Of a DNA stretch of 64,000 bases, positions 4,920 to 64,000 are shown in pieces. The first letter of the stretch is position 1. Each line of letters starts with the position of its first letter. The DNA comes from Chlorobiaceae bacterium (GTDB taxonomy: Bacteria > Bacteroidota > Chlorobiia > Chlorobiales > Chlorobiaceae), in contig JAAXXY010000007.1 in assembly GCA_013334225.1 (NCBI GenBank), forward strand, positions 23,961 through 87,960, given 5' to 3'. The notes beneath the pieces are model-generated. The model was not told the origin of the DNA, ran no database searches, and saw only the letters and a program-made list of their open reading frames with translations. The position numbers and the translations under genes are program-made.

Positions 4920-5864
4920 TTATCCTCTGGGGTGAAATGTTTTATGCACTTCCTTGATGAAGGACCTGTCAAGATGCGTATAGATCTGGGTAGTGACAAT
5001 TGAGCTGTGTCCCAGCATCTCCTGGACTGAACGCAAATCGGCACCGCCTTCGAGCAGATGGGTGGCAAACGTATGTCTGAAGGTATGTGGACTGATCTCC
5101 TTTTCTATTCCGGCCAGGGAAGCATACTGCCGCACTATGTTGAAAATCGCCATACGTGAGAGCTTTCTGCCTCTTGCATTGAGAAACAGATAGTCTTCCG
5201 AATCCCGCCGGACAAGTGATATCCGCAGTTCATTTATATAACGGGTGGTCCATTCGATAGCGGATCGTCCGACCGGCACAAGTCTTTCTTTCGAGCCTTT
5301 CCCGAAAATCCTTGCAAAACCGGCATCGAAATAAAGGTTCTGCTGCTGCAGGTTTACAAGTTCACTTACTCTTATACCGGTTGCATAAAGAAATTCAAGG
5401 ACCGCTTTGTCCCGGAGATGGAATTTACCTGCGGGAATCTGTGTGAGCGGAGCATCGAGGATACGCATGGTTTCATCGACCGTAAGCACTGAGGGAAGGT
5501 AACGTGACTGCCTGGGCTGATGCAGGTTTTCTGCCGGGTTTGTAACGAGAATACGATCGGTTGCAAGGAATTTGTGGAATGACCGTATGGCAGAAATATT
5601 CCTGGCCAGGGAACTGGCTTCGAGGCCGGTATGATAAAGGGATGTAATGAATTCCTGGACAAGGGGAGGCATGATCTCGGAAAGTGAACCGATATGGTCC
5701 TGCATGAAAAGCAGGTAGCGTTCGAGATCATGTTGATAGGACAGTCTCGTGTTTTCCGAAAAGTTGCGTTCGATAAGCAGGTAGTTCAGGAACCCATCGA
5801 GAACACTCCTGTATTGGACATCAAGCATGAGCGGATGTTTGATTAAAAACAAAAGATACAACAA
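4920..5864 (-). CDS. xerD: Site-specific tyrosine recombinase XerD
   Basis: N-terminal SAM-like domain and catalytic R...HTFRHTFATHLLEGGADLRSVQEMLGHSSIVTTQIYTH; real start is probably internal (MLDVQYRS). Confidence 0.9.
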   Translation of the reverse strand: MLYLLFLIKHPLMLDVQYRSVLDGFLNYLLIERNFSENTRLSYQHDLERYLLFMQDHIGSLSEIMPPLVQEFITSLYHTGLEASSLARNISAIRSFHKFLATDRILVTNPAENLHQPRQSRYLPSVLTVDETMRILDAPLTQIPAGKFHLRDKAVLEFLYATGIRVSELVNLQQQNLYFDAGFARIFGKGSKERLVPVGRSAIEWTTRYINELRISLVRRDSEDYLFLNARGRKLSRMAIFNIVRQYASLAGIEKEISPHTFRHTFATHLLEGGADLRSVQEMLGHSSIVTTQIYTHLDRSFIKEVHKTFHPRG

Positions 5865-53961: not shown

Positions 53962-54028
53962 GAAACTTTTAATAACAGCGTTTCATTTACAAGGGAAAAC
54001 ATATCAATAATTGAAATAAGTTTCATTC

Positions 54029-54505
54029 ATGTCAGCAAAATTACTTGAACCGGGTCTGCCTGCACCTTCATTTACTGCAAAGGACCAGGACGGCAAGACA
54101 GTTTCCCTCGAAGAGTACCGCGGAAAGAAGGTTCTGCTGTATTTTTATCCGAAGGACGACACCCCGGGATGTACTGCCGAAGCTTGCGCTTTTCGCGATA
54201 ATTTGCCTAAATTCAGCTTGTCAGGGGTTGATGTGCTTGGCGTAAGTGTTGATGATGAAGGAAAACACAGGAAGTTTGCCGACAAGTTCCAGCTTCCGTT
54301 CAGGCTGGTGGCCGACACGGACAGGAATATTGTTGAAGCATATGGTGTATGGGGTCTAAAGAAATTTATGGGACGTGAATACATGGGCACCAACCGCGTC
54401 ACTTACCTGATCGATGAACAGGGGGTGATTGAAAAGGTCTGGCCGAAAGTGAAGCCGGCCCAGCATGCTGAGGAGGTGCTCGATTATCTTCAGAAAAAAA
54501 CCTGA
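54029..54505 (+). CDS. bcp: Thiol peroxidase / bacterioferritin comigratory protein
   Basis: LLYFYPKDDTPGCTAEACAFRD. Confidence 0.93.
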   Translation: MSAKLLEPGLPAPSFTAKDQDGKTVSLEEYRGKKVLLYFYPKDDTPGCTAEACAFRDNLPKFSLSGVDVLGVSVDDEGKHRKFADKFQLPFRLVADTDRNIVEAYGVWGLKKFMGREYMGTNRVTYLIDEQGVIEKVWPKVKPAQHAEEVLDYLQKKT

Positions 54506-54514
54506 AAAAATCGA

Positions 54515-55078
54515 ATGGTTAACGAATTTGAAAAACTCGAAGCCGGAAAACTTCTGCTTGCTTCAGCCAATCTTCTTGAATCGAATTTCAAGCGGACTGT
54601 AATGATCATTTGCGAGCATAACGATAAAGGGTCGCTCGGTTTTATCCTGAACCGCCCGATGGAATTCAAGGTCTGCGAAGCAATTACCGGGTTTGAGGAG
54701 ATAGAAGAGTTGCTGCACATGGGAGGCCCGGTGCAGGTCGATAGCGTGCACTTTCTCCATACGAGGGGGGATGTGATCGACGGTTCCTTTGAAGTTCTTC
54801 CAGGCCTGTTCTGGGGGGGCGACAAGGACCAGTTGAGCTTTCTTATCAATACCGGCGTTATCCTTCCGTCCGACGTCCGCTTTTTCCTCGGCTATGCCGG
54901 CTGGACTGCCGGGCAGCTCGAGACCGAGTTCGAAGAGGGTGCCTGGTATACCGCTGACGCTTCGAAGGAAATCGTTTTCAGCGATGCATACGAGAGGATG
55001 TGGAGCCGTACGGTCCGTTCGAAAGGCGGCGAATACCAGATTATCGCTAATTCTCCCGAACTTCCCGGGCTCAACTGA
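54515..55078 (+). CDS. YqgE/AlgH family protein
   Basis: LEAGKLLLASANLLESNFKRTVMIICEHNDKGSLGFILNRP; GGPVQ; FLGYAGWTAGQLETE. Confidence 0.92.
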   Translation: MVNEFEKLEAGKLLLASANLLESNFKRTVMIICEHNDKGSLGFILNRPMEFKVCEAITGFEEIEELLHMGGPVQVDSVHFLHTRGDVIDGSFEVLPGLFWGGDKDQLSFLINTGVILPSDVRFFLGYAGWTAGQLETEFEEGAWYTADASKEIVFSDAYERMWSRTVRSKGGEYQIIANSPELPGLN

Positions 55079-55194
55079 CCTCTTTTGACAAGTCATCCCC
55101 GCCCGGGAATTAAAAGGGTGGGGATGATGTTGTTCTTTAGGCTGAAAAAGCATATATACAATTGCTTCCAAGCATTATTGTTCTTTGTAAATCT

Positions 55195-55593
55195 GGGGAT
55201 GACAGGCTTTCGACAGGGCATGTGTGATATTGAGTTGCACTCCGAGTTTCAGCATGGATGGACTCGTTAAAGAAGTCTATGTACCTATTAGATGCAGACG
55301 ATCATTCGTATGCAATGGCTGCCTGATTAGCAAAAGTTAACTCACCAGCCATCGTCCGACCGGGGGATGCGCTTACTCTGAATCCGGCGGATGGCATAAC
55401 CCGCGCTTGAGCTTCGGCTCGCGCAAGTAGGCTCCTTCTTCTTTTTCCCTGGAAAGGGGAAGGGTAAACACAGGGATAGTGAAACGGCCTTTACAGGTGT
55501 AGTTCCGTTTCACGAAACACCGAACACCTGAGATGAGTGTGGTAGCTTCATAGAGCAATGTTCTGGACGCGGGTTCGAGTCCCGCCATCTCCA
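55195..55593 (+). ncRNA. ssrA: tmRNA (SsrA)
   Basis: 5' GGGGATGACAGGCTTTCGACAGGG; tag ORF GCAGACGATCATTCGTATGCAATGGCTGCCTGA (ADDHSYAMAA*) at 55294-55326; 3' GGACGCGGGTTCGAGTCCCGCCATCTCCA; acceptor GGGGATG/CATCTCC pairs. Confidence 0.95.
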
Positions 55594-56048
55594 CTTTTGA
55601 CCTATCCGGTAGCCTCCGGAAAAGTCCGGAAACCCTTGAGAAATCAGGGTTTTCCGTGTTTTATTCGCTGTGTTGACTCAGGTGTTATTTACCGTGCAGT
55701 TGGCGTAAAGTTTTCTGAATTTAAGGCACCTCAATCAATTTCTTCTGAATCTCGATTGCAGCGTTGTCAAGACACGCAGGGATCGAAATCCTCATCCTGA
55801 AAACTTTCGGGACTCCGGTTTTGGAGTTTATCACGATAAGATCGGGACACCGTCTGCCTTGCACTCGTGCTTCTCACTACAATAAATACAATAAATAGAA
55901 GTACCCTGTAGTGGTACTGTGAGGCGGTCAATTTCCATCTTATTTGAACTATCAGAAAAACATATATCAGTTTTTTATGTAAGTTGCAATTGTATCCCGT
56001 CTCGTAACCTGTTTCACAATCTATCTTTAAACATATCCCTGAATCACG

Positions 56049-57563
56049 ATGTCATTCAGTAATAATGCTTTTTTCCTGTTAAAGGATTACTCTGAATCTG
56101 CGTTCATCATCGATATTCAAGGCACCATCCTTGAAGCAAACTCAGTTGTAATTTCCAGATTTTTCAACGATCTCGGTGATGTTCACGGCATGAACGTATT
56201 TGATCTAATATCAAACGTATTTCATGAGCCGGAACTTGCGGTCAGCCGAAAAGCCATGGTAGATAAGGTAGTTTCAACGGGACAGTATCACATTTTCGAT
56301 GACGAATCATTAGGTCGTGTTTTACGAAACTCCATATACCCTATAAAAAATTCGGAAGGGAACACCGCCCGACTTCTGATTATTGTCCAGGACATTACTG
56401 CACAGGTCCTGGCTGAGAAACAGGCCAGGAAAACAGAGGGTGTCTACAAAGCGCTTATCGACGCTATTCCCGGCTCCGTTTTTGTCCTGGACAAAGAGTG
56501 CCTTATACATAGCAGTAATGATTTTGCCATTGAGCTGTTCAGTGATCACACAGGAAAAATTCAGCACAATGATTTTTTCGATCTCATATTCGAAGAAGAT
56601 CGTGAAAATTTAAAAGAGAAATTGACTGAGCTTTTCAATTCTGGTTTCATTGAGGCTGATGAAGTAAGGATGCATACTCATGGTAACCGAAAAAGGTACG
56701 ACTGGTTCAGCATCAACGCCCAAAGAGCAGTGATCGGCACTAACGAATATCTTGTACTTGTCTGTATCGATATCAATCGGCAGAAACATGACGAAGCGCG
56801 ACTGATCGGGTACAGAAAATGGATGGTCATGGCGATGGAATCCGGTAATACGGGGCTCTGGGACTGGAATGTCAAAACAGATGAAGCCCTTTGGTCAAAC
56901 AAAATATGGGATCTCTATGGAATAAAAAAAGTATCGGGACAACATCCATCCTTTAAACTCTGGGAAACATCCGTTCATCCCGATGACAAGGAGGCGGTTA
57001 TCGGAGCTCTGAAGCAGGCTGTTAAACTACTGGCTGATTTGAATATCGAATATCGTGTTGTTCATCCGAACGGCTCGATTTCCTGGGTGCTGGTTAATGG
57101 AAAACCGGTCTTTAACTCCAGGGGGGAGGCACATCGATATTGCGGGATTGTAATAGATATAACGGATCAAAAGCAATTGGGAGAAGAGATTCACCTGACA
57201 CGAGAACTTCTTAATCAGGCACTTGAGAAATTACACATCGGATGGTTTCACACGAGCCTGAAGGACTATTCGACTATCAGAACGCTTGAGCATGCCCGGA
57301 TTTTCGGCTACGATACCCTGAATTCCGACTGGTCTTTAAGTGAATTTTTCAAACACATTGATATTGAGGATCGGGAAAGGGTCCAGAAGCAACTGTTCGA
57401 CTCAATAGCAAACCACAAAGATTTTATCGTTGAATGTCAAATCAGGAAAGCTGATGGCGAAAAGCGCAGGATTTGGGCCTCAGCGTCCCTTCAGTATGAT
57501 AAAGACGGAAATGTTACTCATATTCTGGGCATAGTACAGGATATCACTGATCGATTGTCTTGA
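56049..57563 (+). CDS. Multi-PAS/PAC domain protein without recognisable output domain
   Basis: Several PAS/PAC motifs (RLLIIVQDITAQVL, YLVLVCIDINRQK, HRYCGIVIDITDQKQ, HILGIVQDITDRLS*). Confidence 0.8.
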   Translation: MSFSNNAFFLLKDYSESAFIIDIQGTILEANSVVISRFFNDLGDVHGMNVFDLISNVFHEPELAVSRKAMVDKVVSTGQYHIFDDESLGRVLRNSIYPIKNSEGNTARLLIIVQDITAQVLAEKQARKTEGVYKALIDAIPGSVFVLDKECLIHSSNDFAIELFSDHTGKIQHNDFFDLIFEEDRENLKEKLTELFNSGFIEADEVRMHTHGNRKRYDWFSINAQRAVIGTNEYLVLVCIDINRQKHDEARLIGYRKWMVMAMESGNTGLWDWNVKTDEALWSNKIWDLYGIKKVSGQHPSFKLWETSVHPDDKEAVIGALKQAVKLLADLNIEYRVVHPNGSISWVLVNGKPVFNSRGEAHRYCGIVIDITDQKQLGEEIHLTRELLNQALEKLHIGWFHTSLKDYSTIRTLEHARIFGYDTLNSDWSLSEFFKHIDIEDRERVQKQLFDSIANHKDFIVECQIRKADGEKRRIWASASLQYDKDGNVTHILGIVQDITDRLS

Positions 57564-58332
57564 TACCAAATGTGATTTTACTCACACAAGGATTCAGCGA
57601 AGCATCTCCAAACATATCTGCTGGCGTTCGCACTGTTGCTGCGGGATTTGAGGGCGGTACCGGGGTAGTGATTATACACTGCAGGGACATAGTGATCCTG
57701 ACAAATTGGGAACTGCCTGCAATCGATCGAAACATTTCGATGAGCGACGAAGGATGATACAGACCTGGGTTGATTATCTGGAGAAGCTGACGGTCAGTAC
57801 GGAGCGGATGTTAAGACTGTGATGAATTTGCCTGGACAGAAAAAAATGCAAACAATACTCGTTTACCTGTATGCGTTCGATGAGGACATGAGGGCTGGGG
57901 TTGAATGGATTTGAATAAAGACGTATCAGCTCACAGTCTCTGAAATTTAGACATCTCACCTTACTGCATGCAGCATGCCTTTCCGGCAATGCTGCTGACT
58001 GCAGGCACACTGTTGTATATGGTTTCTGATATGCTGGACCATGTTCGATAAAGATGACAGCGGTGTATTTGAAGTTCCTCGATTCTGCGGTATCTGAGGC
58101 TTCAGAGTGAATGCGAATCGATATGCCGACAACTCAGACTGTTCCGTTACGGATGGTCAAGGTAGGAGGATAATTTGGTTAAAAGTTGTGTTGATTTCCA
58201 TAAAATGAAGTTATATATACTGCTATATTACTTTAAAAAGCATGTTTTTAAGAACTAATCACAATTCTTTTGTGTCTATTAACTGCAATACTTAACTTAT
58301 AAGTGAAATAACGAGGTTTTAAGATTGTACCT

Positions 58333-58788
58333 GTGGATTTCGGCGATGCTGGTTCTATCTATACTATTCAGTTTCAGGGGGAAAATCAGACAGAATTTGA
58401 CAAGTTCCTTGAAAATAAATGGGTACATGAAGAAGAAGAATCTCTTGAAAGGCTTCTTGCAAAGCTCAAATCCATGTCAACCATTTGGGGTTTTCCCGAT
58501 GGGATGTTCAAGGTAAAGGAAGGGAAGTTTTCTGATTACGTTGTGGCTTTACGTGAAGGCAAGTTACGTCTTTATTGCTTGCGAATCGAGGATGTTCTGC
58601 TTGTTACAGGTAATGGTGGATGTAAGACCTCAAGGACGTATCAGCAGGATCCTCATTTGCATAGTTCGGTCAAGGATTTACAGATGGTGCACAAGGTCAT
58701 CATGAGCAGGATTGCTACCGGCAGGACTCATGTCGATCGCATTACAGGGGTGTTGCGAGGTTCTCTTAATTTCTATACAGATAAATAG
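58333..58788 (+). CDS. HigB/RelE-like toxin candidate
   Basis: 151-aa small protein (GDAGSIYTIQF...KLRLYCLRIEDVLLVTGNGGCKTSRTYQ) immediately upstream of an XRE gene; start codon uncertain (GTG or upstream ATT/TTG). Confidence 0.55.
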   Translation: MDFGDAGSIYTIQFQGENQTEFDKFLENKWVHEEEESLERLLAKLKSMSTIWGFPDGMFKVKEGKFSDYVVALREGKLRLYCLRIEDVLLVTGNGGCKTSRTYQQDPHLHSSVKDLQMVHKVIMSRIATGRTHVDRITGVLRGSLNFYTDK

Positions 58789-58790
58789 TT

Positions 58791-59102
58791 ATGTCGATAT
58801 CGCCTTTTCAGAAGCTTGTTGAGAGCATTCCCCCGGTTACAAGGAGGTATGTTAATCGGCAGGTTGGATTAGCTGCTACTGTTGCAGAGGTACTGAAATC
58901 AAAGGGGATGACCCAGCGAGAACTTGCCGAAAAAATCGGGAAGAAAGAGTCTTATATCAGCCGGATTTTGTCAGGCTATGCCAATACGACCCTGAAGACG
59001 ATTTCCGAACTGGAAGAAGCTTTGGGAGAGGATATTATCAGTTTTAATCTTCAGAGAAACGTTGCCAGACAAAGCCCGGTGATCATGATGAATGAGGATT
59101 GA
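58791..59102 (+). CDS. XRE-family HTH protein, putative antitoxin
   Basis: KSKGMTQRELAEKIGKKESYISRILSGYANTTLKTISELEEALGEDI; 2-bp gap from the upstream ORF. Confidence 0.82.
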   Translation: MSISPFQKLVESIPPVTRRYVNRQVGLAATVAEVLKSKGMTQRELAEKIGKKESYISRILSGYANTTLKTISELEEALGEDIISFNLQRNVARQSPVIMMNED

Positions 59103-59338
59103 GCTTGTCACTCTGCCATCTGCATTCAGACAAGACTACGTATAAACGTCATTATGTTGCGAAGTATGTCCTGAGGCTGTTCTGTGAATCTGCATAGCGG
59201 CGAGAAGCCATCCGATCCCTTCATCCCGATGGAATTGCCTGCGTATACGAGCCATCAGCAAAATCTCCTTTTTTACAAAAATGTGATAATTCAGTCCACC
59301 GAACACGTCTTTACCGGGATTTGGCTTCTATCCGTCCC

Positions 59339-59448
59339 AATTCCGTATATTGCGCGTAGTAGTGTCCCGACCATTCCATAATCATAGAATCTCGGAAATG
59401 ATGGCATTCCTGCTTATACCTTATCCGAGCACAAAACAGTAACCCGTT
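59339..59448 (+). promoter_or_regulatory. Conserved 5' flank of pentapeptide-TIR gene, copy 1
   Basis: aattccgtatattgcgcgtagtag...ttatccgagcacaaaacagtaacccgtt, aligns with the flanks of the two downstream genes. Confidence 0.6.
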
Positions 59449-60693
59449 ATGGCGAATCCTGAACATGTGGCGATTCTGAAGCAGGGTCTCGATGTATGGA
59501 ATAGGTGGAGGAAAGATAATCCCGAGATTATTCCTGATTTAAAAGAAGCTAATCTAAGAGAAGCCGATCTGAGAGATGCCAATCTCAGAGGAGCCAATGT
59601 CAGTGGAGCCGATCTCAGTGGTGCCGATCTCAGTGGTGCCGATTTGAATAGAGCCTATCTGGATAGATCCAATATCAGTGGAGCCATTATGAATAGAGCC
59701 TATTTCAGAAAAGCCAATCTGAATAGAGCTTATTTCAGAGGAGCCGATTTGATTAGAGCCGATTTCGGTGGAGCCTATATGATTAGGTCTGATTTCAGAG
59801 GAGCCGATCTCAGCGAAGCCAATCTCAGCGGAGCCGATCTGAGAGATGCCAATCTCAGAGGAGCTAATGTCAGAGGAGCCGATCTCAGCGAAGCCAATCT
59901 CAGCGGAGCCGATCTCAGCGGAGCCAATCTGAATAGAACCTATTTCAGCGGAGCCAATCTCAGAGATGCCAACCTCAGCGAAGCCGATTTAAGCGAAGCC
60001 AATCTCAGAGGAGTCAATCTTATTAGAGCCAATCTCAGAGGAGTTAATTTTAACAACTCAAAAGTTGGCGCTACAGCATTTAATAACAATGATCTCAGTA
60101 CTGTAAATGGCCTTGATACTGTAAGTCATGAAGGCCCATCCAGTATCGATATAGATACACTTTTCAAATCGAAAGGCAATATCTCCGAAGTCTTCCTCCG
60201 TGGCTGTGGTGTGCCGGATCAGATGATCGAGTATGCAAAATCCCTGACCTCCAGCCCCATCGAATACTACTCCTGCTTCATCAGCTACAGCCACATGGAC
60301 GATGAGTTTGCACGGCGGCTTCATAACGACCTTCAAGCTGCCGGTGTCAGGTGCTGGTTTGCGCCGCATGACATGAAGATTGGCGATAAAATCCGGCCAA
60401 CCATTGAGGATTCAATCCGCGTTTATGACAAGCTACTCCTGATCTTATCTACCAATTCCGTAAATAGTAAATGGGTCAAGCATGAGGTGGAACATGCGCT
60501 CGATCAAGAAATCAAGAGAGATAAGCCGATTCTTTTTCCCGTTCATTTGGATAACACTGTCATGGAGAGTGATGCTGGTTGGGCAGCAAATATCAAAGAT
60601 ACCCGCCATATCGGGGATTTCATTCGGTGGAAGGACCATGATGCCTACCAGGAGGCATTCACGCGGTTGCTGCGTGATTTGAAGGCGGGGTAG
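59449..60693 (+). CDS. Pentapeptide-repeat protein with C-terminal TIR-type domain (copy 1)
   Basis: MANPEHVAILKQGLDVWNRW N-terminus; long A(D/N)LSGA repeats; YYSCFISYSHMDDEFARRLHNDLQAAGVRCWFAPHDMKIG...NSKWVKHEVEHAL. Confidence 0.9.
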   Translation: MANPEHVAILKQGLDVWNRWRKDNPEIIPDLKEANLREADLRDANLRGANVSGADLSGADLSGADLNRAYLDRSNISGAIMNRAYFRKANLNRAYFRGADLIRADFGGAYMIRSDFRGADLSEANLSGADLRDANLRGANVRGADLSEANLSGADLSGANLNRTYFSGANLRDANLSEADLSEANLRGVNLIRANLRGVNFNNSKVGATAFNNNDLSTVNGLDTVSHEGPSSIDIDTLFKSKGNISEVFLRGCGVPDQMIEYAKSLTSSPIEYYSCFISYSHMDDEFARRLHNDLQAAGVRCWFAPHDMKIGDKIRPTIEDSIRVYDKLLLILSTNSVNSKWVKHEVEHALDQEIKRDKPILFPVHLDNTVMESDAGWAANIKDTRHIGDFIRWKDHDAYQEAFTRLLRDLKAG

Positions 60694-60712
60694 AGATCAC
60701 ACGGCATGCCTG

Positions 60713-60844
60713 TTATTCGGGTGTTAGGGGATTCTTTTTATTCTTGCCACGTTTCTTGATTACAAGGAAGAGATAAATCCCGCCAACAGTGGAAACCCAC
60801 ACTGACAGCAATTCAATTTTATTGACTTCGGATAAACAAAACAT
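60713..60844 (-). CDS. Tiny (43 aa) single-TM ORF candidate
   Basis: MFCLSEVNKIELLSVWVSTVGGIYLFLVIKKRGKNKKNPLTPE*; hydrophobic core then basic tail; no clear RBS. Confidence 0.25.
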   Translation of the reverse strand: MFCLSEVNKIELLSVWVSTVGGIYLFLVIKKRGKNKKNPLTPE

Positions 60845-61053
60845 ATATACTTAAAAAAAGAAGAGGGGAGCAGATTGAGCCTGAGGGGGAGACATCAACG
60901 CTGTAACGATCGTAAAATACTACAATTATGTAAGGTAATGTAAAAATTTTGAGGAACCTAAAATAAATCCTCTGCTAAAGCGGATGATTTTGAACGTCCT
61001 TTGAAAAAATAGAGCCGTCTCTCAACTGTCTGGTCCCTGTCTTTTATCTGTCA

Positions 61054-61163
61054 ATATTCCGTATCTTATCCGTAGTAGTAACCGAGCGTTCCAAAACCCA
61101 AACGTTACGGATATGCACTTTCCCCTGCCCGTATCTTTTCCGAACCTCAAGCCGTAACCAGCC
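61054..61163 (+). promoter_or_regulatory. Conserved 5' flank of pentapeptide-TIR gene, copy 2
   Basis: atattccgtatcttatccgtagtagtaaccgagcgttccaaaacccaaacgttacggatatgcac... Confidence 0.6.
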
Positions 61164-62228
61164 ATGGCGAATTCTGAACATTTGGAGATTCTTAAGCAGG
61201 GGGTCGAGGTTTGGAATAAATGGAGGGAGGAATATCCACATATTTTACCTGATCTCTGGAGAGCTGATCTTGTTGGGGCCAATCTTGAAAAAGCCAATCT
61301 TGAAAGAGCCAATCTTGAAAGAGCTAATCTCTATGAAGCCAACCTCTATGAAACCAACCTCTATGGAGCCGATCTCAAAGGAGCCAGACTTTTCAGTGTC
61401 GATCTAAGTAGTGCTAATCTCCATAGTGCTGATCTTTATGAAGCTAATCTCCATAATGCAGATCTCGTTGAAGCCAATCTTGCTGGAGCCAAACTCTGCA
61501 GTGCCAGTCTTTTTGAAGCTGATCTCTGGGGAGCCAATCTCCGTGGAGCCAATCTGAGTGGAACCAACCTCTGTGGAGCCGATTTTAATTTAGCAAGAGT
61601 TGGTTTAACCGCATTTAATGATGTTGATATCAGTAACGTGAAGGGTCTTGATACAGTAAAGCATTTTGGACCCTCTACCATCGGCATCGACACCCTTTAC
61701 CGCTCGAAAGGCAATATCTCCGAAGTCTTCCTCCGTGGCTGTGGTGTGCCGGATCAGATGATCGAGTATGCAAAATCCCTGACCTCCAGCCCCATCGAAT
61801 ACTACTCCTGCTTCATCAGCTACAGCCACATGGACGATGAGTTTGCACGGCGGCTTCATAACGACCTTCAAGCTGCCGGTGTCAGGTGCTGGTTTGCGCC
61901 GCATGACATGAAGATTGGCGATAAAATCCGGCCAACCATTGAGGATTCAATCCGCGTTTATGACAAGCTACTCCTGATCTTATCTACCAATTCCGTAAAT
62001 AGTAAATGGGTCAAGCATGAGGTGGAACATGCGCTCGATCAAGAAATCAAGAGAGATAAGCCGATTCTTTTTCCCGTTCATTTGGATAATACTGTCATGG
62101 AGAGTGATGCTGGTTGGGCAGCAAATATCAAAGATACCCGCCATATCGGGGATTTCACCCAGTGGACCGTACCTGATGCGTACAGGGTGGCGTTCGAGCG
62201 GTTGCAGCGGGATTTGAGGGCGGGGTGA
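61164..62228 (+). CDS. Pentapeptide-repeat protein with C-terminal TIR-type domain (copy 2)
   Basis: MANSEHLEILKQGVEVWNKWREEYPHILPDL; A(N/D)LYEA repeats; TIR module nearly identical to copy 1. Confidence 0.9.
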   Translation: MANSEHLEILKQGVEVWNKWREEYPHILPDLWRADLVGANLEKANLERANLERANLYEANLYETNLYGADLKGARLFSVDLSSANLHSADLYEANLHNADLVEANLAGAKLCSASLFEADLWGANLRGANLSGTNLCGADFNLARVGLTAFNDVDISNVKGLDTVKHFGPSTIGIDTLYRSKGNISEVFLRGCGVPDQMIEYAKSLTSSPIEYYSCFISYSHMDDEFARRLHNDLQAAGVRCWFAPHDMKIGDKIRPTIEDSIRVYDKLLLILSTNSVNSKWVKHEVEHALDQEIKRDKPILFPVHLDNTVMESDAGWAANIKDTRHIGDFTQWTVPDAYRVAFERLQRDLRAG

Positions 62229-62246
62229 GCGTTCTTTTTCCGCCAC

Positions 62247-62352
62247 AATTCCGTATCTTATCCGTAGTACCCGAGCGTTCCACAACCCAAACGTCACGGA
62301 TATGCACGTTCCCCTGTCTATACCTTTACCGAACCTTAAGCAGTAACCGACT
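62247..62352 (+). promoter_or_regulatory. Conserved 5' flank of pentapeptide-TIR gene, copy 3
   Basis: aattccgtatcttatccgtagtacccgagcgttccacaacccaaacgtcacggatatgcac... Confidence 0.6.
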
Positions 62353-63753
62353 ATGGCGAATCCTGAACATTTGGCGATTCTCAAGCAGGGAGTGGAGGTA
62401 TGGAATAAGTGGAGGGAAGAACATCCCGAGATTATTCCTGATCTCATCGGAGCCGATCTGAAAGGAGCCTGCCTCGTAAGTGTCCGATCTGAAGGAACCG
62501 ATTTCAGAGAACACAGGCTCGAAGGAACCGAAACGATTCTTGACATTTTGAAAGAACCCGATCTGATCGGAGCCAACTTCCAAGGAGCCAGTTTCGATGG
62601 GGCAATTCTGGAACGCGCCAACCTGGAACAAGCTGATCTTAGAGGAACCAATCTGAAAGGAGCTAATCTGAAAGGAGCCAAGTTGGTACGAGCCGATCTT
62701 AGAGGAGCCAATCTGGAAAGAGCCAACCTCAAAGAAGCTGATCTGAGAGGAGCTAATCTTGAAGGCGTTAATTTTAACGGTGCCAACCTCGAACAAATTG
62801 TTTTCTTCTATACCCATGCCTTTGGAATCAAAAAAAATCTCCCTGCTAAGGCCTTGGCCGATTTTTTTTATCCAGCCGCTACCGATGGTCCTGAACGATT
62901 ATCACCAAAACATCATGCATCGCCTGAAGCAACAGAAAAAAAACAAGAGCGGCCGAAAATCACTGTGGCTTATCCCGAAGTGATTTCTTCAACGCAATGG
63001 GCTACTGTGGATTTATATCTTTATTTGAGGGCTTTCCGTGAACTTGTTCAAGCAGAAATCCGGCGACAGCAAGAAAAATCAAACATAGATTACTCCGCAG
63101 CATCTTCAGAGTTTCCAAAGAGTCTGCCTGTCGGTTGTCCTGTTAAAATTTCACTCGAATCGACTACCCTTCGTATTAATCCGTCAGAATTGACAATAAA
63201 CTGGTATGAGCCTTACAATCGGCTCTCTTTTCGTGTATGTCCAATTGATGATAACAAAGACGGCTATTCTGCCTCCCTTGATGTTGATGTGTTTGCAGAT
63301 GACCTTCCTGCAGCGTCTATGAGATTATCGATTGCAGTCAATTCCGAAGCTCCAACTGAGCATGTTTCAGCTGCTTCATCGGACGCTACGTGGTATGAAA
63401 AAGTCTTTGCCTCATATGCTCGTGAGGATTTGGAACTCGTCAAGCATCTGAAGGAACGTTACGAGGCACTTGGTATGCATATGTTTATTGATCTCGATGA
63501 TTTGCTTTCTGGCGTAGAGTGGGAAAAGGCTCTTGCCGATAAAATTGATAAAAGTGACCTCTTTCAACTGTTCTGGTCTAAGAATGCACGAAAAGCTAAA
63601 TATGTAACCATCGAATGGAAACATGCACTCCGTGCTAGCAAAATCAAGGGCGGAAGATTTATCCGGCCAGTGTACTGGGATGATAAAATTCCGAAAGTTC
63701 CAAAGGCCTTAGCTGATATAAATTTCCGAAAAATAAAGATCGCAGTATCGTAG
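62353..63753 (+). CDS. Pentapeptide-repeat protein with a different middle domain and a divergent C-terminal TIR domain (copy 3)
   Basis: MANPEHLAILKQGVEVWNKWREEHPEIIPDL; A(N/D)L repeats; TWYEKVFASYAREDLELVKHLKERYEALGMHMFIDLDDLLSGVEW...KYVTIEWKHAL. Confidence 0.88.
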   Translation: MANPEHLAILKQGVEVWNKWREEHPEIIPDLIGADLKGACLVSVRSEGTDFREHRLEGTETILDILKEPDLIGANFQGASFDGAILERANLEQADLRGTNLKGANLKGAKLVRADLRGANLERANLKEADLRGANLEGVNFNGANLEQIVFFYTHAFGIKKNLPAKALADFFYPAATDGPERLSPKHHASPEATEKKQERPKITVAYPEVISSTQWATVDLYLYLRAFRELVQAEIRRQQEKSNIDYSAASSEFPKSLPVGCPVKISLESTTLRINPSELTINWYEPYNRLSFRVCPIDDNKDGYSASLDVDVFADDLPAASMRLSIAVNSEAPTEHVSAASSDATWYEKVFASYAREDLELVKHLKERYEALGMHMFIDLDDLLSGVEWEKALADKIDKSDLFQLFWSKNARKAKYVTIEWKHALRASKIKGGRFIRPVYWDDKIPKVPKALADINFRKIKIAVS

Positions 63754-63757
63754 GTTG

Positions 63758-63853
63758 CTTATCAGCGATTTCACCCGGCGGCAGGATCACGATGCATACC
63801 AGGCGGCATTCAATCGACTGTTGGATGATTTGAAGGTGGAGAAGATTAAATAG
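63758..63853 (+). pseudogene. Residual 3' end of a copy-1/2-type TIR gene
   Basis: LISDFTRRQDHDAYQAAFNRLLDDLKVEKIK* aligns with the copy 1 C-terminus HIGDFIRWKDHDAYQEAFTRLLRDLKAG*. Confidence 0.75.
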
Positions 63854-64000
63854 CTTGATTTATATTGTATTATCACAAATGTCCGGTTATAAGTCAAATA
63901 AATCCAACTGGTTACAGGTATAGGTATTCTCAATTGTGCCAGCAGAATTCGTAACTAATTGTAAAATATCGACTTTCTCGAATAGGCTGACACTCAGGAT

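Follow-up and report, generated by a model that had tools for sequence, protein, structure and literature searches.

Near the end of the 64,000-nt stretch of Chlorobiaceae bacterium DNA analyzed here (contig JAAXXY010000007.1; hereafter the window), three plus-strand genes in succession each encode an N-terminal cap, a pentapeptide-repeat beta-helix and a C-terminal TIR_2 domain, in that order. The reading that we favor, at slightly better than even confidence, is that every one of the three proteins combines sensor and effector in a single chain. Cap and beta-helix would make up a rod for binding a partner or scaffold, and the TIR, once rods are brought together, would cleave NAD+ or make a cyclic ADP-ribose signal and thereby stop the cell, most likely during conflict with phages or other DNA entering the cell. 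Of this reading, the enzymatic half is the safer one, given a conserved W-x3-E motif and a predicted fold resembling that of the bacterial TIR enzyme AbTIR, while the repeated position of family genes behind Type ISP restriction-modification genes suggests a role as a restriction accessory in some relatives. TIR enzymes have a central part in the immunity of bacteria, plants, and animals, and to our knowledge most known bacterial TIRs sense with other modules. A pentapeptide rod joined to a TIR with intact catalytic residues, repeatedly placed behind a restriction enzyme in one genus, is a candidate for a new sensor type, and the scars described below would be sequence-level traces of effector-end replacement.

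All three open reading frames (ORFs) match Pfam Pentapeptide (E = 9e-73, 5e-32, and 4e-30 for genes 1, 2, and 3) and TIR_2 (PF13676; E = 7e-24, 1e-23, and 9e-17), the latter at 85, 85, and 62 bits against a curated cut-off of 28 bits. The array proteins carry the beta-helix-forming tandem A(D/N)LXX repeats that define pentapeptide-repeat proteins. The ORFs and Pfam matches thus bear out a preliminary description of this DNA, which had proposed three same-strand genes with cap, pentapeptide helix, and TIR. A repeat search recovered the pentapeptide arrays as well as a 239-nt family (D3) spanning leader and cap in all three genes at 65-100% identity, and the matches to array domains and repeats are far beyond chance. 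About 120-130 nt of 5′ leader are also alike among the three genes (65-81% identity), so that the shared stretch is longer than first described. The parts of the array are as follows.

59320-59448, + strand: 5′ leader of gene 1, holding CCGTATATTGCGCGTAG at 59343; 65-66% identity to those of genes 2 and 3
59449-60693, + strand: gene 1, 414 aa; cap, long pentapeptide helix, linker, and type 1 TIR, with W342 and E346 (ORF, Pfam)
60169-60622, + strand: gene-conversion tract of gene 1 (linker and TIR); 1 mismatch in 454 nt to 61704-62157
60277-60669, + strand: TIR_2 domain of gene 1, residues 277-407 (Pfam)
61030-61163, + strand: 5′ leader of gene 2 (sequence comparison)
61164-62228, + strand: gene 2, 354 aa; cap, pentapeptide helix, linker, and type 1 TIR, with W282 and E286 (ORF, Pfam, structure model)
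61704-62157, + strand: gene-conversion tract of gene 2 (sequence comparison)
61812-62180, + strand: TIR_2 domain of gene 2, residues 217-339 (Pfam)
62229-62352, + strand: 5′ leader of gene 3; 81-84% identity to the gene 2 leader
62353-63753, + strand: gene 3, 466 aa; cap, pentapeptide helix, a further segment (approximately residues 190-345), and a TIR of another type, with Y417 and E421 (ORF, Pfam)
63403-63729, + strand: TIR_2 domain of gene 3, residues 351-459 (Pfam)

With regard to the leaders, that of gene 1 is 93% identical over 43 nt to the leader of a paralogue elsewhere in the genome (the C86 paralogue). The motif CCGTATNTTNNCCGTAG, allowing up to two mismatches, occurs in the window solely within the leaders of genes 1-3, at 59343, 61059, 61129, and 62251 (four matches, with 0.21 expected), and is possibly a regulatory or recombination element.

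TIR types and predicted enzyme activity

The preliminary description had noted a C-terminal TIR-type domain in all three proteins. TIR_2 is indeed present in all three, but the TIRs are of two kinds: those of genes 1 and 2 are practically identical (type 1), while that of gene 3 has approximately 25% protein identity to type 1. In a phmmer comparison against the PDB, the gene 2 TIR matched AbTIR (PDB 7uwg, 7uxu, 8g83) with E = 2e-10, and W282-VKH-E286 fell on the W-TNY-E of that enzyme. The catalytic residue of AbTIR is E208 (PMC10022894). W282 and E286, together with S219, C242, W243, D248, and S274 (gene 2 numbering), are invariant across 48 family members. Alignment places a Glu at the matching position of all three array proteins (E346, E286, and E421), as had been proposed, with Tyr417 of gene 3 replacing the usual Trp.

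An AlphaFold model of gene 2, built from a 48-sequence alignment, had a mean pLDDT of 88 and a pTM of 0.60, the latter making the relative placement of rod and TIR uncertain. The modeled TIR superimposed on AbTIR with a bound NAD analogue (7uxu) with a TM score of 0.79 by target length and 2.9 Å, in keeping with the expected TIR fold. Because of the conserved W-x3-E at the AbTIR position and the AbTIR-like predicted fold, the type 1 TIR likely cleaves NAD. The solved AbTIR chains differ from the array proteins in having no pentapeptide rod. For gene 3, the PDB comparison gave neither a match to AbTIR nor any other well-matching TIR, and a single-sequence structure model was poor (mean pLDDT 40). 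The segment of approximately 155 residues ahead of its TIR has no Pfam match. Gene 3 has no close relatives outside its own genome among 399 genomes of the phylum; a cyanobacterial plasmid protein matches segment and TIR weakly (27%).

Gene conversion and probable replacement of enzyme ends

Genes 1 and 2 differ by a single base over the 454 nt covering linker and TIR. Outside this tract their identity is approximately 66-74% per 50-nt window before it and approximately 72% after it, and this step from near-identity to diverged flanks marks a recent gene conversion of linker and TIR. A different kind of event is suggested behind gene 3, where the end of a type 1 TIR is repeated in another frame after the stop codon. 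The interval given in the preliminary description takes in this 3′ end, which lies outside gene 3 and is an out-of-frame remnant. A second, shorter remnant lies upstream of the array.

63760-63845, + strand: scar holding the last ~28 codons of a type 1 TIR, out of frame 3′ of the gene 3 stop; 77% identical at the DNA level to the gene 1 end, same junction in the pseudogene on contig C7
57622-57657, + strand: short TIR-tail remnant between the PAS gene and the toxin–antitoxin pair; 89% identity over 36 nt to the end of gene 2

We infer that the scar is the trace of a replacement of the TIR. An old frameshift would be the less likely origin, since this remnant (approximately 77% DNA identity to the type 1 tail) is far closer to type 1 than is the gene 3 TIR that precedes it. 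A broken gene on contig C7 of the same genome has the same junction, stop, and out-of-frame tail as gene 3; the junction is therefore older than both copies. The C7 locus (L036 4000-5310, contig positions 20499-21808), with its broken TIR of the gene 3 type, also holds a copy of the DNA 3′ of gene 1 and a piece of leader, and from its sequence appears to be a decayed array. Orphan tails, consisting of the same 28 codons starting near RHIGDF and with neither cap nor TIR, are found in many Chlorobium genomes. The array itself would have arisen by tandem duplication of a unit of leader and gene, with gene conversion keeping the enzyme ends of genes 1 and 2 alike and gene 3 acquiring a different TIR by replacement, its old tail left behind.

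Such debris could also mean that the array is a set of decaying, non-functional repeats, reshuffled by recombination, with only tails and TIRs surviving, and those by chance. Both remnants in the window, the C7 pseudogene, and the many orphan tails of relatives fit this explanation. We consider it improbable, as all three window ORFs are intact and the catalytic residues do not vary among 48 homologues from many phyla.

Type ISP linkage and gene neighborhoods

A link between the family and defense comes from relatives. At three Chlorobiaceae loci (L038, from Chlorobium sp. L227-S-6D, L040, and L087) a Type ISP gene ends 111, 43, and 43 nt before a family gene on the same strand. We counted 40 family places in 99 Chlorobia genomes, including broken genes and tails as well as full genes. 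Of these, 13 are no more than 3 kb 3′ of a same-strand Type ISP match, in 11 genomes, as compared to approximately 0.03 expected at random, a contrast whose nominal probability cannot be read literally because the placements are not independent. Few joining events may lie behind the linkage. At L158 and L154 (G065:C74 and G074:C119), the combination of a Type ISP gene or fragment with a TIR gene or tail is found two times in succession, which looks like a duplication of the unit.

Several observations weigh against a role in defense. The 11 linked genomes are not independent, as several remnants share flanks, and several of these genomes probably share one ancestral ISP-TIR locus; the genome of the window has no Type ISP match. 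A PADLOC scan around 12 Chlorobiaceae loci showed no enrichment, with 43 matching families in 145 neighbors vs. 70 in 148 random proteins; the control included a CRISPR locus, and the scan covered no proteins of more than 1200 aa and lost many other long ones to a crude repeat filter, so that Type ISP genes were missed. At 33 loci in other phyla, 109 immediate neighbors gave 10 PADLOC family matches and mostly housekeeping Pfams. Outside the Type ISP cases the family gene mostly stands alone among housekeeping genes, no carriage by phages and only one case of carriage by a plasmid was found, and bacterial TIRs may serve non-immune roles. General defense-island enrichment is supported neither by the filtered Chlorobiaceae scan of 12 loci nor by the counts at the 33 loci in other phyla. 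Of the defense setting first proposed, the pair of genes beside the array stands, in that it matches a PADLOC candidate set; the placement behind Type ISP genes, seen in 11 genomes of Chlorobium, supports a defense link in a way that had not been expected.

These observations raise the alternative that the proteins are solitary, non-immune TIR NADases, regulators of NAD or cell death that are triggered by stress or damage and move around Chlorobia, with the Type ISP linkage reflecting hitch-hiking of one ancestral locus. Most copies have no partner and sit in housekeeping surroundings, both within Chlorobia and in other phyla, which agrees with this, as do the tail remnants with shared flanks, by which the linkage may stem from few events. 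Conversely, housekeeping genes do not usually show patchy gain and loss, tandem duplication, gene conversion, and domain replacement, and 13 placements 3′ of Type ISP genes are left to explain. We regard this alternative as somewhat unlikely and, from sequence comparison, a defense role of the pentapeptide-TIR genes as plausible. A more specific version of the sensor-effector reading, rather improbable as it stands, is that of a backup guard: the rod would monitor the Type ISP enzyme or an invader’s anti-restriction product, and the TIR would kill the cell when restriction fails. Effector ends would then be exchanged at the fixed TIR-tail junction, leaving countable scars and a conserved sensor front with different enzyme ends.

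Another explanation starts from the rod. The pentapeptide helix could be a DNA mimic, as in MfpA and Qnr, docking on restriction or gyrase-like enzymes. Its fold matches include MfpA, Qnr, and AlbG, and the neighbors in relatives are DNA-translocating restriction enzymes. However, the net charge of the helix is not strongly negative (+1, -6, and -4 in genes 1, 2, and 3, with a median of -2.8 per 100 aa across the family), and the pentapeptide DNA mimics McbG and QnrB had no effect on BREX (PMC7261183). We consider mimicry highly improbable.

Upstream of the array are ssrA, a PAS protein, and the gene pair matching the PADLOC candidate set PDC-M64 (E = 2e-30 and 7e-23), which supports the toxin–antitoxin pair noted in the preliminary description.

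55195-55594, + strand: ssrA (tmRNA), upstream landmark
58333-58788, + strand: toxin-like gene; PDC-M64B, 2.4e-30 (PADLOC candidate set), no Pfam match
58791-59102, + strand: helix-turn-helix antitoxin-like gene; HTH_3, PDC-M64C, 7e-23

In Chlorobium sp. L304-S-6D (L047), bcp, yqgE, ssrA, the PAS gene, and the pair occur in the same order, with a full family gene in the opposite orientation between PAS gene and pair, where the window has the 36-nt remnant. The proximity to ssrA had been taken to indicate a genomic island. An island integrated at ssrA finds no support: the window has no second copy of the 25-nt ssrA 3′ end, and the nearest gene of the phage integrase family on the contig (PF00589, at approximately window position 4968-5489) is about 50 kb away. 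The window ends where its contig ends, which puts the far side of the array beyond view. In an acidobacterium, two family genes in tandem directly follow smpB (PF01668; L052, 9237-9758); the parallel with the position of the window array near ssrA is probably coincidence.

Family distribution, related systems, and a possibly portable cap

With genes 1 and 2 and the C86 paralogue as queries, 56 loci were recovered in Chlorobia, Acidobacteria, Desulfobacterota, Ktedonobacteria, Proteobacteria, Nitrospinia, and Bacteroidota, nearly all with the order cap, pentapeptide helix, linker, and TIR. In 48 homologues, the part ahead of the linker is between 84 and 233 aa long, in agreement with the fixed cap, variable helix, and TIR layout initially described. 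Majority identity is 62-69% for cap, linker, TIR, and tail, and 51% for the helix, which is also variable in length. Tandem pairs occur at L052, L056, L058, and L088. Among the 99 Chlorobia genomes the distribution is patchy, with type 1 TIR genes in a minority and remnants in others. Public annotation of single relatives reads “toll/interleukin-1 receptor domain-containing protein.”

Known systems resemble the array proteins in part. Genes 1 and 2 have secondary matches to Thoeris ThsB (Pfam ThsB_TIR, 3e-8; PADLOC ThsB, 4e-11), which has no pentapeptide rod and is not their best PADLOC match, and no ThsA-like partner (SIR2-SLOG, macro, or transmembrane effector) was noticed by eye among the ORFs of 54000-64000, up to the contig end. 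Their best PADLOC matches are PDC-S66 and SAVED-TIR (9e-15 and 1e-13), which span the TIR only; the array proteins have no SAVED domain in Pfam. HetL, NP275/276, MfpA, and Qnr share the right-handed beta-helix and repeat signature and differ in having no TIR, and all matches of the array proteins to Qnr/MfpA equivalogs fall under the NCBIfam cut-offs. Type ISP enzymes of the LlaBIII type are related by position, with a family gene or remnant 3′ of the ISP gene in Chlorobium relatives, and differ in being unmatched in the window’s own genome. In the full-text literature, with most subscription papers beyond reach, the combination of pentapeptide repeats with TIR, anti-phage, NADase, or defense-island terms returned passing mentions only, namely of Orc/Cdc6 proteins fused to pentapeptide repeats or a TIR (PMC10853773) and of a scaffold role for pentapeptide repeats in conflict systems (PMC7159879, PMC8195603), and no published Type ISP-TIR pairing was found. 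The pentapeptide-TIR family is widespread and apparently unstudied, and the 454-nt conversion tract, the type 1 tail scar after gene 3, and the Chlorobium Type ISP linkage are new here.

The cap reaches beyond the TIR proteins. In the same genome it is found on the C86 protein, which has the architecture of the array genes, and at the head of proteins that end in an ion channel, in membrane regions (judged by eye), or, on C41, in an unassigned part; it is present in 70 of the 99 Chlorobia genomes. As it heads channel, membrane, and other proteins, the cap is ruled out as a private signature of a defense family. By their sequences, cap and helix look like a portable front part.

Further loci carry the same elements. 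In this genome, on contig C30 (L034, 4458-5453) lies a cap and pentapeptide protein with an ion channel (Ion_trans_2, 4e-5), and on contig C74 (L035, 4701-6080) a pentapeptide protein with two cap-like segments and an apparent signal peptide. On contig C41 (L030, 4854-10000), a cap and pentapeptide protein is followed by an alpha/beta hydrolase, a trypsin-like protease with TPR-S, and a MAP3K_TRAF_bd/TPR-S protein, and the locus looks like a conflict system. The linker occurs with pentapeptide repeats and no TIR at L166-L168: the protein at L166 (1677-5957) adjoins a gene resembling an N6-methylase, and those at L167 (2457-6000) and L168 (2036-4999) stand beside helicase-like genes (all by eye).

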